Shown: positions 1,866 to 56,569 of the stretch, one piece after another
Layout: every line of letters starts with the position of its first letter
How positions within the stretch are numbered: position 1 is the stretch's first letter
Position numbers and translations under genes: made by a program
Assembly: GCF_019021925.1 (NCBI RefSeq)
Contig: NZ_CP058990.1
Coordinates: 2,196,001 to 2,260,000 of the forward strand
DNA: 64,000 bases
Direction: 5' to 3'
Source: Cellulophaga sp. HaHaR_3_176
Lineage (GTDB): Bacteria > Bacteroidota > Bacteroidia > Flavobacteriales > Flavobacteriaceae
Notes under the pieces: model-generated
The model's database searches: none
Told to the model about the DNA's origin: nothing
Seen by the model: the letters and a program-made list of their open reading frames with translations, nothing else

Positions 1866-4802
1866 TTATTTTAAATTAAGGCTTACTCTTGCGAATAAAA
1901 ATCTACCTCCAATACCAAATTGTTGAGCTCTTCTTGACCAATCAAAACGACCATCACTTCTATTTCCAAAAGCTTCTTCTGCTCTGTCTGGATAAATATC
2001 AAAAAGGTTGTTTGCTCCGATTGTGAAAGTCAAGGCTTCTGTTGCCTTATAACCTACAGATAAATCTGTAACCAATTTTTCTCCGAATACTTGCTGATTA
2101 TCAATAACTGTTGTTGCTTCTGTAACTTCACCAAAATATACATTTCTTAAAAAGAAAACTAATTTTTGAGATGTTAAGCTATTCGATAAATTAATTTTAG
2201 TTCTTGGCACAGCTTCTTCTAAATAAACTCTACTATCTTCAGGAAAATAAGTATCTATTAAACCTGCATCTGTTAAAACTTGAGAAGCATTAATATCGCC
2301 TACTTTTTTAGTTTTTGATAGAGTACCTGCTAAATCTGATTTTAATCTCCAATCATCTCCAAATGATGTTTTATGAGTAATTACAACATCTAAACCTTTA
2401 GATTCTGTATCGATTGCATTTGCAAAAAATGAAGCTGCTGTTGCATTAGCTTGACTTAATAAATTATCTAATTCAGTTCCAGTTCCTGGGCCTTCAAATT
2501 GACCTGTATACACTACTCTATCTTGAATTTTAACGATATAACCATCAATAGTAACTGTTAAGTTTGCATTAGGAATTTTAGCTGTTAAACCCAAACTAGC
2601 ACTTTGAGAAGTTTCTTCTTTTAAATCAGGGATACCTAATAATTTAGCTGCTCTACTATCATTTGCAAATGTACCAACCTCTTGAGGATCTCCATTTTGA
2701 TCAAAAATAGTTGATGTTGAATTAAAATTAATTTGATGTAATGATGGTGCTCTAAAACCTGTATTTAAAGCTGTTCTAACATTTATATTTTCAGAAATTT
2801 TATATCTAGATGCTAATTTAAAGTTAATTGTAGAACCAAAATCGCTATAATTTTCAAAACGAGTAGCAAAACTCATTAAAAGTTTATCTGTAATATCTGC
2901 TTCTGTATCAAAATATGCAGCTACACTATTGCGACCTCTTGATAATTCGTTTTTAGGACTAAACCCAGGAAAAACCTGAGATCCACCTGGTCGTGAGTTT
3001 CCGAAAAAATCTTCAGAAGCTTGCTGTGTTGAAACCGTAATTAATTCTCCTGTTGCTGTATACTGACCATAAGATGCTGGCTCTCCACTAACAATATCAT
3101 AATTTTCAACTCTATACTCTGCACCGAAAGCGATGTTTAAACCAGATAATACATCATCAAAAAATTGAGTAACATCTAAATTAGATGTGTTTTGAGAAAA
3201 AGAAAATCCACCTGCATCAAATAAAGTTGGTGATGCATTCTGTAAAGACGCGTTAAAAGTATTACCAATAGTATACAAAAATGAGTTTTTACCATATGTA
3301 TTACTAAAATCTACACTCCAATCACCAACTTTACCTTTAATCCCTAAAGAAAATGATTTGTCTTTTATAGTTGAATTAATTTCAGGTAAAAATCCATTCA
3401 TATACGCTGGCGTGTATGTTCTGCTTTGGTTTGGTAAACGGTAAAACCCTGCCGAATTACCTGTTCTAGAACTGATACCTGCAAAAGAGTACAATTCAGT
3501 ACCATTTACATCTAATGGAATAGACAAGTTTGCGAAAATACGCCCACCTCTTAATGCTGATTGACCAACACGCATATTATAATCACTTCTTTCTTGGCCT
3601 CTTGCTGCTAGTTCCGCTGTTGTATTATCAGCACCAAGAACTGTTCTTAAATCTTCTTTAGTTGTTGCGCCATTTCTATCAAACCCTGCCTGATCTGTAT
3701 ATTGAATAACATCTGCAACATCATCATCTAATAAATTAGAAATATCATAACCGTCAGCTCCCGCAAGGCGTTCTATAGTGTTGTAACGATTAAATATAGT
3801 GCCTTCCCATTCATTCATACGACCATATGCATCACGCACATCAAAATCTCCAGAAAGATTAATAAAACCACCATTTTCACCAATTGGCAAACCATAACTT
3901 GCCGCAACATTAGTTGTCTGACCATCTACGCCACCTGTTTGATCATTTGCATTTTTAGAGAAATTTGCTCCAGTTGTAACAGTTGCTGTTAACTCGTTCA
4001 CACTTTTATTTAAAACAATATTTATAACACCAGCAATTGCATCTGATCCATATTGCGCAGCAGCCCCATCTCTTAAAACCTCAATACGTTGTATTGCTGC
4101 TGCAGGAATTGCATTTAAATCTGTACCCACACTACCCCTACCAAATGTTCCATTAACATTTATTAAAGATGATGTATGTCTTCTTTTACCATTAATTAAA
4201 ACCAAAACTTGATCTGGACCTAAACCTCTTAACGAAGCTGGATCAACATGATCTGTACCATCTGATATCGTTTGTGTATTTGATGTAAATGAAGGTGCAA
4301 CATAATTTAAAATCTGATTTAAGTTTACTTGTGGAGCAATATTATTTAACTCCTTCATATCAATAACATCAACAGGTACCGTACTCTCTGTTGCTGTTCT
4401 ATTAGGATTACGAGAACCCACAATTACAACCTCTTCCAATGCTAAACCAGAAGATAATTGTATTGTCATTTTCGAACCACTAACTGTAACATTCTTAGTT
4501 TCGAAACCGATATACGAAACAATAAGAACATCTCCAACAGCACCTTCAATAGTGAAATTCCCATCAAAATCTGTTGTAGCTCCTTTAGTCGTTCCTTTTC
4601 TAACAATTGAAGCTCCTGCTAATGGCGCTCCATCTTCATCTAAAACAGTACCTTTTATATCTTGCTGTACTTCTAGCAGAACATTACTTAGTGCTATCTC
4701 ATCTTCACTTACTACTAAAAAACTATTAGCAGCAACATTCTTCACCACTCCAATCATAAAGGATAAGAGTAACATTAATTTAAGTGTTTGTTTGTTCTTC
4801 AT
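1866..4802 (-). CDS. TonB-dependent outer membrane receptor
   Basis: 978 residues: signal peptide (about 1-25), a CarboxypepD_reg-like domain (about 48-120: [28 protein letters not shown]), a plug domain (about 135-265: [41 protein letters not shown]) and a 22-strand type barrel ending in an aromatic-rich strand. Such receptors import substrates across the outer membrane with energy from TonB-ExbBD. There is no SusD partner, and the plug lacks the SusC signature LYVLDG, so this looks like a classic TonB receptor; the substrate is unknown. The [14 protein letters not shown] stretch after the carboxypeptidase-like domain resembles a TonB box. Transcribed alone. Confidence 0.9.
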
Positions 4803-5013
4803 AAATTTGAGTATTAGTTAGTATTAACATATATAAGTATAGAGTTTGTTTTACATATTTATACCCTATTTTTTTTGATAAACTTCAATAAACTTATCAT
4901 GACTATAATTTAGGAATTTTAAACTGTTAAAACAATTATAAAATTACCAATTAAAAAACCAAATAGCTTATCTATTTAATTAATTCAAATTGTATTTTTA
5001 TAAAAAAATAAAA

Positions 5014-6246
5014 ATGCAACATATTATAGATAGGTTTATTAGCTATATAAAGATAGATACTCAAAGTGATGCTACATCTGAAAGTACACCAAGTACTGAA
5101 AAACAATGGAATTTAGCTCACAAACTTATAGCCGATTTAAAAGCTATTGGTATGCAAGATGTGACTATTGATGATAACGCCTACATAATGGCTACGTTAC
5201 CAAATAATACAAAAAAAGAAGATATACCTGTTATAGGTTTTATTTCTCATTTTGATACTTCTCCTGATTTTTCAGGAACTAATATTAACCCACAAATTAT
5301 TAAGAATTATGATGGAAAAGATATTGTTTTAAACGAAGAGCAAAACATTATCCTATCTCCTGATTATTTCGATGATTTATTACAATATAAAGGACAAACA
5401 ATAATAACTACAGATGGCACAACTCTTTTAGGGGCCGATGACAAAGCTGGTATTACAGAGATAATTACAGCCATGGAATACTTAATTAACAACCCTGAAA
5501 TTAAGCATGGTACTATTAAAGTTGGATTTACCCCTGATGAAGAGATTGGAAGAGGAGCTCATAAGTTTGATGTTACTAAGTTTGGTGCTGATTGGGCATA
5601 TACTATGGATGGTAGCCAAATTGGGGAATTAGAATACGAAAATTTTAATGCCGCTGGTGCTATTGTTACAATTAAAGGCAGAAGTGTTCATCCAGGATAT
5701 GCAAAAGGTAAAATGGTAAATGCCATTACTATTGCAAATGATTTTATGTCATTATTACCAGCTGAAGAAGTACCGCAGAAGACTACAGGTCGTGAAGGTT
5801 TTTTTCACGTTCACCATATTTCAGGAGAAATTGAAAATGCAACAATTGAACTCATCATAAGAGATCATGATAAAGATAAATTTGAAGAACGAAAAAAATT
5901 AGTTTCTAAAATTGGAGATGATTTAAATGCTATTTACAAAGATGCTATTACAGTTGAAATAAAAAATCAGTATTTTAATATGAAAGAAAAAGTAGAGCCT
6001 GTTTTTCATATTATTGAAACTGCAAAAGAAGCTATGGAAGCATTACACATAAAACCTATATTAAAACCTATACGAGGAGGTACTGATGGTTCTCAATTAA
6101 GTTTTATGGGACTACCTTGCCCTAATATTTTTGCTGGCGGACATAATTTTCATGGTAAATATGAGTATGTACCTGTTGAAAGTATGGAGAGTGCTGTTGC
6201 CGTTATTGTGAAAATTTGTGAACTTACTGCTGCAAAAGCAAAATAA
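5014..6246 (+). CDS. pepT: Peptidase T (tripeptide aminopeptidase)
   Basis: M20B metallopeptidase that removes the N-terminal residue from tripeptides in the cytoplasm. Zinc-site motifs are all present: FISHFDTSPD (His and Asp), LLGADDKAG (bridging Asp), TPDEEIGRG (catalytic and zinc Glu), and the C-terminal GGHNFHGKYEY (His). RGGTDGSQL matches the family's substrate-binding segment. The ATG at 5014 gives 410 residues starting MQHIIDRF, the usual PepT start; an in-frame TTG eight codons upstream is unlikely. Monocistronic. Confidence 0.95.
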   Translation: MQHIIDRFISYIKIDTQSDATSESTPSTEKQWNLAHKLIADLKAIGMQDVTIDDNAYIMATLPNNTKKEDIPVIGFISHFDTSPDFSGTNINPQIIKNYDGKDIVLNEEQNIILSPDYFDDLLQYKGQTIITTDGTTLLGADDKAGITEIITAMEYLINNPEIKHGTIKVGFTPDEEIGRGAHKFDVTKFGADWAYTMDGSQIGELEYENFNAAGAIVTIKGRSVHPGYAKGKMVNAITIANDFMSLLPAEEVPQKTTGREGFFHVHHISGEIENATIELIIRDHDKDKFEERKKLVSKIGDDLNAIYKDAITVEIKNQYFNMKEKVEPVFHIIETAKEAMEALHIKPILKPIRGGTDGSQLSFMGLPCPNIFAGGHNFHGKYEYVPVESMESAVAVIVKICELTAAKAK

Positions 6247-53138: not shown

Positions 53139-54425
53139 TTACCTCACAAATGTAGTTCCGAAAGTAACAATGTAAGAATTTAAACCATCACTACGATCGT
53201 ATTTAGCAAATCGTAAATCGATTGTTTTAAGACCAAATGAAAAAACTTTAGCACTCGTAAATATATCCTTATAACGAAAACCCATTCCATATTGGTGTGC
53301 GTTAAAAGCTGATAAATCATAATCTGATGTGTAATATTGCAACGTAGACAAAGTCGTTTCTTTTTGATAAAAATAATCAGCTGCTGTTTGGCTATAATAT
53401 CTATACGTTGGGTATGCCGTAAAAGTAGTACTCAATTTTATAGGAATTTCTAAACTGGCAGTATGAGATGTAATTCCCCAATCATCAGAATAAAAACGAT
53501 AATAACTTCTTACAATAAAAGTATCATTAAGAAAGTAATTTAAACGTGCCCCTATCGGAATTTTAAACCGCGTATCTGGCAATCGTTCTACATCATCTGC
53601 TAATTGAAAATCTTCAATAAAAAAATCTTCTGTATCAGAAAAATAAACCCTTTGAAAAGGAGTACTCAACAAACCGTTCTGAGAAACCACGTCTAAAAAA
53701 ACAGACCCTTGCAAACGCTTACTTAAAATTTGAGAAACACTTAATGATAATGAATACGAGTTTCTAACATCAGAATTGAAACTAGAAAAATTAGGACTAT
53801 AAGTTCCATTTCCAATAATTCTATCATCAAAAAATACACCTCTTAACTCAATCGGATATTGAGGGTTCCACTTGTCAAAATATACTTTTGCACTTGCCGA
53901 AACCTCTGTATTTTTTTCATTGAACAACTGAGTGTAACCTCCTCCAAAACCTATAGAAGAATAATCATATTCAGAAGAAAAATAGGCATTTGCATTCCAT
54001 ACCCTGTTCCTATCATCTGAACTATGCTGGTATGATGGATTTAAATGAACCAAAGCATCTGACCTTGAAGCACCTGATGAAGCATTAAAAGGACTTGCTT
54101 GTTTGGTACCATCTAGCGGGTTTATATTACTTGAAGATGCCGAAGTATATGTTGAGATGCCGACATCTACAGTCAATATATCATCATCATTCATTGGCAC
54201 TCTAACAATTAATGAACCTGTTGCATCTGTTAGCTCTTCAGTTCCTTCGCCACCTGAAACTGCCGCGTGCTCACCATCTTGACTGTAATAACTAAAAAGA
54301 GCATCAATTTCAGTACTTTCTAACACTCTTTTTTTATAGGATGTGTCTTTTGTTTCTTGAGAATAGCTAACAAAAATTCTGAAACATAAAAAAAGGCATA
54401 GATATACAATGTTTTGTTTTTTCAT
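53139..54425 (-). CDS. DUF3570 outer membrane beta-barrel protein
   Basis: 428 residues: signal peptide (about 1-22, FRIFVSYSQ), an N-terminal YKKRVLESTEIDALFSYYSQDGEHAAVSGG segment (key ALFSYYSQDGEHAAV) typical of DUF3570, then alternating strands rich in Tyr/Phe ending FGTTFVR. Predicted outer membrane barrel of unknown function. Last gene of the Rieske-thioredoxin-ApbE-DUF4266-DUF3570 operon. Confidence 0.88.
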   Translation of the reverse strand: MKKQNIVYLCLFLCFRIFVSYSQETKDTSYKKRVLESTEIDALFSYYSQDGEHAAVSGGEGTEELTDATGSLIVRVPMNDDDILTVDVGISTYTSASSSNINPLDGTKQASPFNASSGASRSDALVHLNPSYQHSSDDRNRVWNANAYFSSEYDYSSIGFGGGYTQLFNEKNTEVSASAKVYFDKWNPQYPIELRGVFFDDRIIGNGTYSPNFSSFNSDVRNSYSLSLSVSQILSKRLQGSVFLDVVSQNGLLSTPFQRVYFSDTEDFFIEDFQLADDVERLPDTRFKIPIGARLNYFLNDTFIVRSYYRFYSDDWGITSHTASLEIPIKLSTTFTAYPTYRYYSQTAADYFYQKETTLSTLQYYTSDYDLSAFNAHQYGMGFRYKDIFTSAKVFSFGLKTIDLRFAKYDRSDGLNSYIVTFGTTFVR

Positions 54426-54439
54426 AATTCTAAAGTATT

Positions 54440-54649
54440 CTAATTACAACCGCAACCACCACCTGTTTTTCCACCATTAGCACCTGAAGAGGCCTCCCTG
54501 TATATCTGAAAATTAGTTTCAAATTGCTCTGAATTTTTAGCAGACAACATCATCTCATCATCATTTAAATATACCTTATCATACTCTTTAACCACTACAC
54601 ATGATGTACTACATAATGTTAAAAGTAAAAGAACAGTAATTTTTCTCAT
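54440..54649 (-). CDS. DUF4266 small lipoprotein with C-terminal GGGCGCN
   Basis: About 69 residues from ATG 54649. Lipoprotein signal LLLLTLCSTSCVVVKEYDK, short linker LNDDEMMLSAKNSEQFE, then YREASSGANGG and a Gly-rich end GGGCGCN. The EASSGAN stretch looks like the ApbE acceptor pattern D-G-x-[ST]-G-A-[TS] but has Asn in the last place. The two end cysteines may bind metal or exchange disulfides with the adjacent thioredoxin. Encoded between apbE and the DUF3570 barrel gene. Confidence 0.85.
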   Translation of the reverse strand: MRKITVLLLLTLCSTSCVVVKEYDKVYLNDDEMMLSAKNSEQFETNFQIYREASSGANGGKTGGGCGCN

Positions 54650-54653
54650 AAGT

Positions 54654-55655
54654 CTAAAGTTTAGCATTGGTATCAAATTGTATTCCTTCGCTTTTATGTA
54701 CTTTATTATCTGAATCTACAATTATAATTTCAGCACCTTTTAATTGATTTATAAATGACAAACCTGTGTCTTTACCCATTATAAAAACAGCGGTCGCTAA
54801 TGCATCACACAATTCTGCTGTTTTAGAAAAAACAGAAACACTATTTATACCTTTTGATGGATATCCTGTTCTAGGGTCTATAATATGCGAGTACTTTTCT
54901 CCTTTAAATGTAACGAACTTTTCATAATTACCAGAAGTAGCTACAGATGATTCGCTAATAGGAAGCCAAGAAAAAATCTTTTCTTTGTCTAAAGGGTTTG
55001 CGATACCTACAATCCATTTTTCACCAGATGCTTGACTACCCCAGGTTGTTAAATCGCCAGAAGCATTAATTATACCTGCATATACCTTTTTAGAAATCAT
55101 TAACTGCTTAGCTTTATCAGCTGCATACCCTTTACCTATAGCTCCAAAACCAATTTTCATTCCTGGTAACTTTAAAAAAACTGTAGATTTTTCTTTATTT
55201 AAAATGATGTTTTTATAACCGACTTTTGAAACAGAATTTGCAATTTCAATTTCGGTAGGTTCAAATTTCATCGTACCATCGTATTTCCAAATAGCATCCA
55301 TTGATGCATATGAAATATCAAAAGCACCATCTGTAATTTCTGAAATTTTAATTGCTCGTTCAATTAAATCAAACAATTCTGAACTAACTTTAACAGACTT
55401 AATACCTGCATTTTTATTAATTAATGAGGTTTCTGAACTTTTATCCCATGAGGATATCATGCGTTCAATTCTATTAATTTCAGCTACAACTTCTTTAATA
55501 TTTATAAAAGCAACCTCTTCACTTTCTGATACAATTGTAATATCAAAACGAGAGCCCATAAGTTTCATAGACCTTTCTACCGTATGAAGCTTTTTTGCTT
55601 GACTTTGCATTCCTACAGAAAATATAAAACCTAAAATAAGAAGTATAACTCTCAA
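54654..55655 (-). CDS. apbE: ApbE: FAD-dependent protein FMN transferase
   Basis: 333 residues with signal peptide (ILGFIFSVGMQSQA), so exported. Attaches FMN covalently to Thr/Ser of envelope proteins, using FAD. Family motifs: MGSRFDITI, GAIGKGYAAD, INASGDLTTWG and HIIDPRTGYPSKG (Mg and FAD site). TTG start overlapping the TGA of the thioredoxin gene (TTGA), so translation is probably coupled. No classic Rnf/Nqr target is in the window; the adjacent DUF4266 or DUF3570 protein is the likely acceptor by inference. Confidence 0.93.
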   Translation of the reverse strand: MRVILLILGFIFSVGMQSQAKKLHTVERSMKLMGSRFDITIVSESEEVAFINIKEVVAEINRIERMISSWDKSSETSLINKNAGIKSVKVSSELFDLIERAIKISEITDGAFDISYASMDAIWKYDGTMKFEPTEIEIANSVSKVGYKNIILNKEKSTVFLKLPGMKIGFGAIGKGYAADKAKQLMISKKVYAGIINASGDLTTWGSQASGEKWIVGIANPLDKEKIFSWLPISESSVATSGNYEKFVTFKGEKYSHIIDPRTGYPSKGINSVSVFSKTAELCDALATAVFIMGKDTGLSFINQLKGAEIIIVDSDNKVHKSEGIQFDTNAKL

Positions 55656-56086
55656 TCTAAAAATGAATTTAATAAGGAAATATATGCTTTAGAATTTATT
55701 TTTTTATAACCAGTTTTTCCTAAAACATTATTTTCAGAATCTAAAATAACTACTAAAGGAAAGTACCCTTTGGAGTTATATTTTTCTGCTAATTTTTTAT
55801 TTTGATTTTCTAAATCATCTGAAAGCTTATTCGATTTTCTTTTGGGAAAATCAGCCTTGTAGAGCACATAATTTTCATCTGAGTATTTTTTAAACTCCGC
55901 AGACTGCCAAATGTCTTTATCTAACTTTATACATGGCGCACACCAATCTGATCCTGAAAAAACAAGAATAATTGGTTTTTTATTCTTGTTTGCAATAGCC
56001 TTTGCTTCTTCAAAATTCACATTCCAATTTTGACTATAAACCGTAACCCCACAAAAAAGCATGGCAACAAAAAGTATCTTCTTCAT
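55652..56086 (-). CDS. Secreted thioredoxin-fold protein (CAPC)
   Basis: 144 residues: signal peptide (1-18, CGVTVYSQ), then a thioredoxin fold with FSGSDWCAPCIKLDKDIW (active-site CAPC about residue 50) and YFPLVVILD with the cis-proline region. Resembles thioredoxin_7/DsbD-C-like proteins that keep envelope proteins reduced. Overlaps apbE by 4 bases. Confidence 0.92.
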   Translation of the reverse strand: MKKILFVAMLFCGVTVYSQNWNVNFEEAKAIANKNKKPIILVFSGSDWCAPCIKLDKDIWQSAEFKKYSDENYVLYKADFPKRKSNKLSDDLENQNKKLAEKYNSKGYFPLVVILDSENNVLGKTGYKKINSKAYISLLNSFLD

Positions 56087-56113
56087 TTACTTTGTGGATT
56101 TTAAGTTTAATGT

Positions 56114-56569
56114 TTATCCAAAAACTCTAAGCATATTATTACTTAGCTCTTCTGTATTATACACTAACAATCTACTAGTTGTTATCGAATTTAAAGGCTG
56201 ACCTGTTTGATCAAAACGAGCTCCATGTTCACTACAGCTGAAAATACCGCCACTATCAGATATAAAAGTAACTTTTTTATTTGCTTCATGACTACATACT
56301 TGGCTACCCGCTACAAAAACACCTTCTAAATTACGAGCAACAACTATACTATTTGCTATAATAAAACCTCCGTTTGTTGATAAATTAGAAGCTTCTGATG
56401 AGTTTAAATCTATTGTAAAATCAATACCTGTAGGGGCCTCTAAACCGCCTCCTTCACCTTCTTCTACCTCTCCACTACCTGAATCAGACGAACAACCGTG
56501 CAAACATGGGAATGCTATTGCAAATGCAGCTCCTGCTCCTAATGTTTTTAAAAATGCTTTTCTTTCCAT
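56114..56569 (-). CDS. Rieske [2Fe-2S] lipoprotein
   Basis: 151 residues. N-terminus ERKAFLKTLGAG resembles a twin-arginine type signal (one Arg, one Lys) and ends in a lipobox-like LHGCSSD, then a Gly/Glu spacer. Rieske cluster ligands: VCSHEANKKV (Cys-His) and IFSCSEHGARFD (Cys-His) with the usual 15-20 residue gap. Single-electron carrier outside the cytoplasm. First gene of the operon whose later genes encode thioredoxin, ApbE, DUF4266 and DUF3570. No cytochrome b partner here. Confidence 0.9.
   Translation of the reverse strand: MERKAFLKTLGAGAAFAIAFPCLHGCSSDSGSGEVEEGEGGGLEAPTGIDFTIDLNSSEASNLSTNGGFIIANSIVVARNLEGVFVAGSQVCSHEANKKVTFISDSGGIFSCSEHGARFDQTGQPLNSITTSRLLVYNTEELSNNMLRVFG

Follow-up and report, generated by a model that had tools for sequence, protein, structure and literature searches.

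A Rieske lipoprotein gene heading a DUF3570/DUF4266/ApbE operon in Cellulophaga, and a possible thiol–flavin–iron–sulfur electron route across the envelope of Bacteroidota

What might a Rieske iron–sulfur protein do at the head of an operon whose other members suggest thiol and covalent flavin chemistry outside the cytoplasm? The question is raised by a stretch of 64,000 nucleotides (hereafter 'the window'; contig NZ_CP058990.1, positions 2,196,001 to 2,260,000) from Cellulophaga sp. HaHaR_3_176, a member of the Flavobacteriales whose genome of 3.80 Mb is a single contig. On the minus strand, between positions 53139 and 56569 of the window, five genes are transcribed in the order Rieske lipoprotein, thioredoxin, ApbE, DUF4266 and DUF3570, with a purM-like gene upstream and prfA downstream. 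A sequence-only reading of this DNA had proposed an undescribed operon of exported redox proteins including an outer-membrane barrel. The open reading frames (ORFs), the Pfam matches (all above their curated cut-offs) and the signal-peptide-like or lipobox stretch at the N-terminus of all five proteins, judged by eye, agree with the exported redox operon, and structure prediction bears out the barrel; 'undescribed' has to be given up, and the view of the five genes as one obligate unit proves too strong.

The four genes behind the Rieske gene belong to a published system. Clusters of ApbE, DUF3570, thioredoxin and DUF4266 were reported by Meheust et al. (2021; PMC8238504), whose main text describes DsbD-containing clusters with ApbE, DUF3570 (227), thioredoxin-like PF13899 proteins (183) and DUF4266 (221), 316 further clusters of the four families without DsbD, and VIT1 in 25 clusters. 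By the same account, the ApbE of Chlorobium luteolum flavinylates the DUF3570 protein of that species at two [ST]GA[ST] sites; the authors suggest redox cycling for the CxC of DUF4266 and propose DsbD as the electron source. Because these four genes and the flavinylation of DUF3570 are already in print, the new part of the system is the Rieske gene. The words 'Rieske', 'barrel' and 'Bacteroid' are absent from that main text, the supplement of which may list Rieske neighbours; in the literature searched, DUF3570, DUF4266, PF12094 and PF14086 were found nowhere else, a search on Rieske proteins with outer membrane, flavinylation or ApbE returned nothing on this system, and 'Rieske' was not found in the available text of PMC11334425. 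The window operon shares with the published clusters all four Pfam families, exported proteins, the CxC tail and a cognate ApbE, and VIT1 accompanies some clusters; it differs in having a Rieske gene first, no DsbD in the cluster and TSAS instead of [ST]GA[ST] at one site. With one canonical motif instead of two, no in-cluster DsbD and a Rieske gene added, the window operon is treated here as a variant of that system.

The four core genes keep together much more often than chance would allow. In a survey of 296 genomes from the order, every one of the 58 DUF4266 loci was retrieved, and the neighbours were identified by phmmer searches from the window proteins (1e-4). The 58 places of DUF4266 and the 58 of DUF3570 are spread over the same 56 genomes; ApbE adjoins DUF4266 at all 58 loci, DUF3570 at 57 (the exception, L038, has its DUF3570 about 41 kb away) and thioredoxin at 55, and the DUF4266 tail GGCGCN is identical throughout. 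The association of ApbE with DUF3570 and DUF4266 that had been pointed to earlier is borne out, and the conserved neighbourhood is very strong for these four genes; for the Rieske gene it is recurrent and not universal. A Rieske family profile matches in 10 of the 296 genomes, 7 of which have the Rieske gene beside DUF4266, and it is the first operon gene in 7 of the 58 loci.

Outside the order, phylum-wide matches fell in 18 genomes of the class and 67 others, from which we fetched all 21 class-level places and 19 farther ones, 13 of the latter from a single family that owns 61 of the 67 genomes. The five-gene order with Rieske first recurs at 8 of the 21 class-level places (5 of 6 in family f17, 2 of 2 in f24, 1 of 4 in f23, and 0 of 9 in f18, f19 and f25 together) and at none of the 19 places from farther families. 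Within the order, the operons of L066 and L069, which occupy an unrelated site, also begin with a Rieske gene, a divergent one; a sulfatase gene lies upstream of them, and a response regulator, a kinase and efflux genes follow downstream (by eye). The product of this Rieske gene is 33–41% identical to the eight slot-type proteins matched, and in the close relatives L070 and L072 the operon lies at the corresponding site with no Rieske gene. Rieske genes thus lie first, upstream of thioredoxin, in four separate parts of the ApbE tree, namely the purM–prfA slot type described below, L066/L069, f17 with f24, and f23. Rieske presence changes at least 8 times on this tree (91 scored rows, with an excess of Rieske-bearing ones owing to the Rieske-based search; 50 shuffles gave a mean of 30.7). 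Of two Rieske trees, one built from every third slot protein without L135 (a split gene) and the other from 21 of the 80 named loci introduced next, the backbone is weak, and independent recruitment and repeated loss are therefore not separable. Under either history the first position beside thioredoxin is kept, and this is the main support for a putative working link.

How firmly the Rieske gene is tied to its neighbours can be judged from its own surroundings. A collection of named genomes yielded 238 Rieske relatives, of which the best 80 loci were kept; loci without a Rieske gene could not appear in this series, which was gathered with a Rieske query. Thirty-seven of the 80 are full operons, 4 are Rieske–thioredoxin–ApbE (one cut by a contig end) and 2 are Rieske–thioredoxin–ApbE–DUF4266 (both cut; the three cuts are in L139, L155 and L167), 18 are Rieske–ApbE (one, L136, cut), and in 19 the Rieske gene is without the others, 9 alone in the slot and 10 in another island. 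Except for these 10 island copies, every locus whose contig extends far enough has the Rieske gene in the same chromosomal slot as the window, between purM and prfA–pyrF; purM and the Rieske gene are 2.7–2.8 kb apart in L106, L112 and L144. The nearest locus to the window by purM, prfA and pyrF, among those compared, is that of Cellulophaga baltica (90% over 1042 columns), and on the tree of these three genes the slot content changes at least 10 times. The slot ApbEs form one group of 36 rows (support 100) in one tree and of 52 rows (support 99) in another, each taking in three Rieske-less rows; 25 further loci were left out of the tree with the 36-row group and of the count of Rieske changes on the ApbE tree, and the tree with the 52-row group drew on no more than 18 of the full-type ApbEs among the 80 named loci and on a subset of the D type. 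Since the Rieske–ApbE forms are nested inside a group whose first branch is a full operon (L089, in the larger group also L104 and the window), the short slot forms may best be read as losses from the full operon.

DUF3570 was found in 21 of the 30 genomes searched. Among 11 genomes with a Rieske–ApbE pair, 7 have DUF3570 elsewhere (one a 157-residue fragment) and 4 have no match. Since the Rieske gene is also kept in its slot where the barrel gene is missing, it is a partner of the barrel system and not an obligate subunit of it. The four genomes with a pair and no DUF3570 hold two ApbEs each and no DUF2271; in G102, G167 and G319 there is one FMN_bind protein, about 3.3 kb from the other ApbE, like NqrC in the window genome, and in G300 there are three. 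In G102, G167 and G319 the Rieske-linked ApbE has no known substrate to spare, which may point to a further kind of ApbE substrate. Pairs in genomes where neither DUF3570 nor DUF2271 turned up are at L213 and L214 (G102, G167), L175 (Lentiprolixibacter type) and L144, the ApbE being on a long branch in L093 (G167).

The Rieske lipoprotein itself (151 residues, positions 56114 to 56569, minus strand; PF00355, 30.7 bits against a cut-off of 20.3) has 788 relatives at E <= 0.001. Its cluster ligands are C92-S-H94 (codons 56288–56296) and C112-S-E-H115 (codons 56225–56236), with the four ligand columns invariant in 20 aligned rows, window included; the full pattern is present in 79 of the 80 named relatives, and in the remaining one, L135, the gene is split into two ORFs. 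In Rieske proteins of the cytochrome bc/b6f type an extra cysteine pair forms a disulfide beside the cluster. This second pair is absent from the window protein, from all 80 named proteins, from 7 of 7 in the order and from all 8 class-level operon proteins, so that the window protein does not fit the bc type; 3 of 4 unlinked Rieske proteins do have it. Structure-database matches are weak (8hn2 at 1.4e-5, dioxygenase components, 5cxm). With Rieske-type ferredoxins and stand-alone Rieske proteins it shares the CxH...CxxH ligands and a weak sequence match, and differs from them as an envelope lipoprotein encoded beside a thioredoxin and a flavin transferase. A Tat (twin-arginine translocation) check of the Rieske leader found a conserved RKxFL, with RK rather than RR and RY in two relatives, and TatC in the genome.

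The residues behind the lipid-bearing cysteine bear on a possible position at the cell surface. The surface-export signal given for Bacteroidetes lipoproteins in PMC5080379 is C-X-K-(D/E)2-X, or else acidic residues behind a polar one. The stretch from the lipid cysteine on is CSKD or CSSD in 60 of the 80 named Rieske proteins, C-S-K-(D/E)2 in 34 of 80 and the (D/E)2 pair in 49 of 80; both the full signal and the pair occur in 0 of 15 background lipoprotein-like clusters, and no acidic pair stands at +4/+5 in the 56 readable DUF4266 proteins. The Rieske protein was rejected as an ApbE substrate, with [ST]GA[ST] in 0 of the 80 named rows; the sole exception at class level (1 of 8) is L245, whose linker carries a single SGAS behind the lipid cysteine. 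In L238 an ORF in the operon position (4687–5208, plus strand) has SPNH in place of CxxH, its second cysteine ligand replaced by serine, and this Rieske-fold lipoprotein may lack a normal [2Fe-2S] cluster. Among variant arrangements, L171 (7965–12509) has the order Rieske–ApbE–thioredoxin–ApbE–DUF4266–DUF3570, its second ApbE grouping with those of Rieske-less operons. The island copies (L102, L105, L107–L109, L132, L135, L149, L172 and L173) are Rieske paralogues in a metal-like island, of which a cytochrome c (L105) and DUF6503 (L173) were identified; Euzebyella marina CY01 holds both forms (L130 in the slot, L149 in the island).

The flavin would be carried by the DUF3570 protein (428 residues, 53139–54425, minus strand; PF12094, 137.4 bits), for which AlphaFold2 gives a confident 16-strand barrel with a mean predicted local distance difference test score (pLDDT) of 88.7 and generic closest structure matches. 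Two candidate ApbE sites, T94-S-A-S97 (codons 54135–54146; S95, A96 and S97 invariant in 137 of 137 rows) and S117-G-A-S120 (codons 54066–54077; S120 invariant in 137 of 137, A119 in 125), fall in the loop of residues 94–122, which the model puts on the presumed outer face of the barrel, where the connections are long (3–33 residues for the odd ones, 4–10 for the even ones). Conservation is higher in the loops of this side (mean identity 0.750) than in the strands (0.682), and within residues 39–427 these 142 loop residues contain 26 of the 60 invariant positions, as expected if such loops build a functional site. Among 57 order proteins, site 1 reads TSAS in 39, SSAS in 17 and a gap in 1, and site 2 reads SSAS in 32, SGAS in 20, TGAS in 3, TSAS in 1 and a gap in 1.

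ApbE, the FAD:protein FMN (flavin mononucleotide) transferase (333 residues, 54654–55655, minus strand; PF02424, 271.9 bits; matches to 7esa and other FMN transferases), had been thought possibly to serve an Nqr or Rnf subunit elsewhere, an alternative that fails for this genome: nqr genes, recognised by eye at 239.7 kb, have their own adjoining ApbE, a separate gene in a separate clade, and the genome's single FMN_bind protein lies among them, while the operon ApbE is neither beside nqr genes nor in the nqr-linked clade. A DUF2271 protein, a second known type of ApbE substrate, is encoded elsewhere (G000:C1:3600891-3601274). DUF4266 (54440–54649, minus strand; PF14086, 69.8 bits), a lipoprotein with the C-terminus GGGCGCN (CxC codons 54446–54454), had been considered for covalent FMN as well; this finds no support, with [ST]GA[ST] in 0 of 58 proteins, and it was dropped as an ApbE substrate. 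The periplasmic thioredoxin (144 residues, 55652–56086, minus strand; PF13899 Thioredoxin_7, 57 bits; active-site CAPC at 55931–55942) is DsbH-like (NF043050 DsbH, 95.6 bits, below its cut-off of 190), and the solved structure nearest to it is 2ju5, the chlamydial reductant DsbH. One full DsbD (DsbD_N, DsbD_TM and a C-terminal Thioredoxin_7), the only one over the cut-off, is encoded unlinked at about 1.262 Mb; in one distant family DsbD is part of the operon at 10 of the 13 loci examined (10 of the 19 farther places).

We favour, with a probability of roughly 0.45, the reading in which the operon encodes a trans-envelope electron route that uses thiols, covalent flavin and an iron–sulfur cluster; we favour it because ApbE and DUF3570 accompany DUF4266 at 58 and 57 of the 58 loci and because flavinylation of Chlorobium DUF3570 is reported in the main text of PMC8238504. 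Beyond what was computed, namely gene content, conservation, barrel fold, site position and the separate Nqr ApbE, we would propose a path, in this order and direction, from DsbD by way of thioredoxin, DUF4266 and FMN-DUF3570 to the Rieske protein. The unlinked DsbD would reduce the periplasmic CAPC thioredoxin, which would reduce the C-terminal CxC of DUF4266, a lipoprotein presumably on the periplasmic side of the outer membrane; from there electrons would pass to FMN bound by ApbE to serines in the first long loop of DUF3570, and the Rieske lipoprotein would take them from the flavin (or return them) at the barrel. A metal such as Fe(III) would be the likeliest final acceptor, and the function perhaps metal reduction. 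Since many operons do without the Rieske gene, its product would be a replaceable terminal or branching carrier.

Several observations weigh against this route. Rieske genes alone in the slot belong, in 5 of 6 genomes, to genomes with no DUF3570 match and a single ApbE each; kept under these circumstances, the Rieske protein has a role outside the DUF3570 route. In the window the Rieske signal CSSDSG is weak for surface export (one acidic residue at +4, then serine), and in other orders only 1 of 8 Rieske proteins has the (D/E)2 pair. The site loop is of low confidence in the model, with residues 118–121 under 50; the window DUF3570 has one motif of the published form (SGAS, 117–120) and one variant (TSAS, 94–97), a search of this region turned up no [ST]GA[ST] in 33 of the 56 DUF3570 proteins from the order and in 20 of the 21 from the class level, and site 2 is SGES in 22 of the 37 full named loci, a form of one clade only among those examined. 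No DsbD was found at any of the 58 order loci or the 80 Rieske loci, and VIT1 (PF01988) is missing from the neighbourhood of all 7 Rieske-bearing order loci, the window among them, and of all 80 named Rieske loci. ApbE stays beside the motif-less DUF3570 proteins; the local ApbEs may tolerate a broader motif, or else flavinylation may have been lost in many DUF3570 members. The idea that the Rieske cluster has taken the place of one flavin site was rejected on the motif counts: in the order, Rieske-bearing proteins have one (4 of 6) or two (2 of 6) and Rieske-less ones (n = 50) none (33), one (14) or two (3), while in the class the count is zero in 8 of 8 Rieske-bearing and 12 of 13 Rieske-less proteins; these counts omit L074, whose DUF3570 is cut by the first-Met rule, and L038, with no DUF3570 in its stretch.

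The same slot series feeds an explanation that we hold unlikely while taking it seriously, namely that the Rieske gene is a long-standing resident between purM and prfA with a job of its own, which in Flavobacteriaceae is merely co-transcribed with a flavin system placed beside it. A slot that holds the full set, partial sets or Rieske alone, the repeated changes of its content on the purM, prfA and pyrF tree, and the slot-only genomes without DUF3570 all speak for it; however, the divergent Rieske gene heads the L066/L069 operon at another place, where the relatives L070 and L072 lack it, and eight operons of other orders have a Rieske gene first, a recurrence not expected of chance neighbours. 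A further rival is a redox-gated system of metal transport or handling, in which the CxC lipoprotein and the barrel would move or bind iron or copper and the flavin and Rieske centres would set the oxidation state. VIT1 is present in the retrieved surroundings (mostly about 8 kb per side) of 19 of the 58 order loci and 5 of the 40 from outside the order, among them 3 of the 8 Rieske-bearing class-level loci, as it does in the 25 clusters noted in the text of PMC8238504; RND (by eye) and HlyD-type efflux genes are near other loci, and the unlinked Rieske paralogue shares its island with HMA-like, cytochrome c and other metal-related genes (partly by eye). VIT1 is, however, absent near the Rieske-bearing order loci and the named loci, and the structure matches of the barrel are generic; we regard this reading as distinctly unlikely.

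Repair of thiols or oxidised residues in surface proteins, with thioredoxin and DUF4266 doing the work and flavin and Rieske supplying the electrons, would account for a DsbH-like thioredoxin at 55 of 58 loci and for the invariant CxC tail, but leaves unexplained the retention of a barrel with covalent flavin beside DUF4266 (57 of 58) and the loss of thioredoxin where ApbE is kept, in the 18 Rieske–ApbE loci; we consider it very unlikely. The electron route stays our preferred reading. A bolder form of it, speculative and in our view unlikely as a whole, is a haem-free outer-membrane conduit of Bacteroidota made of thioredoxin, CxC lipoprotein, a barrel carrying covalent FMN in its outer loops and a surface Rieske protein as terminal carrier, a module that the Rieske gene would have joined more than once, plus a Rieske–ApbE pair acting on an unknown substrate. 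Outer-membrane electron conduits known so far rely on multihaem cytochromes. The window system would resemble porin–cytochrome conduits of the MtrCAB type in combining an outer-membrane barrel with redox carriers, and differs in that CxxCH occurs in none of its five proteins and that the carriers would be thiol, FMN and [2Fe-2S]; no homology is claimed. If true, a thiol–flavin–iron–sulfur route in many Bacteroidota would be another means of reducing metals or other acceptors at the surface.

The layout of the genes is compact. From the end of the purM-like gene to the Rieske start are 47 bases, the listed intergenic distances in transcription order are 27, -4, -23 and 14 bases, and DUF3570 and prfA are 80 bases apart. 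A Bacteroidetes-type promoter pattern matches 6 times in the window (8.45 expected by chance) and not upstream of the operon, and sigma-70-like sites in the window are fewer than in shuffles (20 against 25.5). In the ORF list DUF4266 begins with TTG at 54676; the alternative start 27 bases downstream at 54649 is likelier, since it would give a normal lipoprotein signal and a gap of +4 bases after ApbE.

Two observations concern the surroundings of the core at other loci. A family of small secreted proteins, whose representative (L043:5962-6351) has no Pfam match, occurs near the operon at 16 of the 58 order loci, chiefly in family f5. In most cases its gene precedes the operon in the same orientation, a median of 77 bases away. 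At the distant locus L273 (3969–13488), two DUF4266 and four DUF3570 matches lie ahead of ApbE and DsbD.

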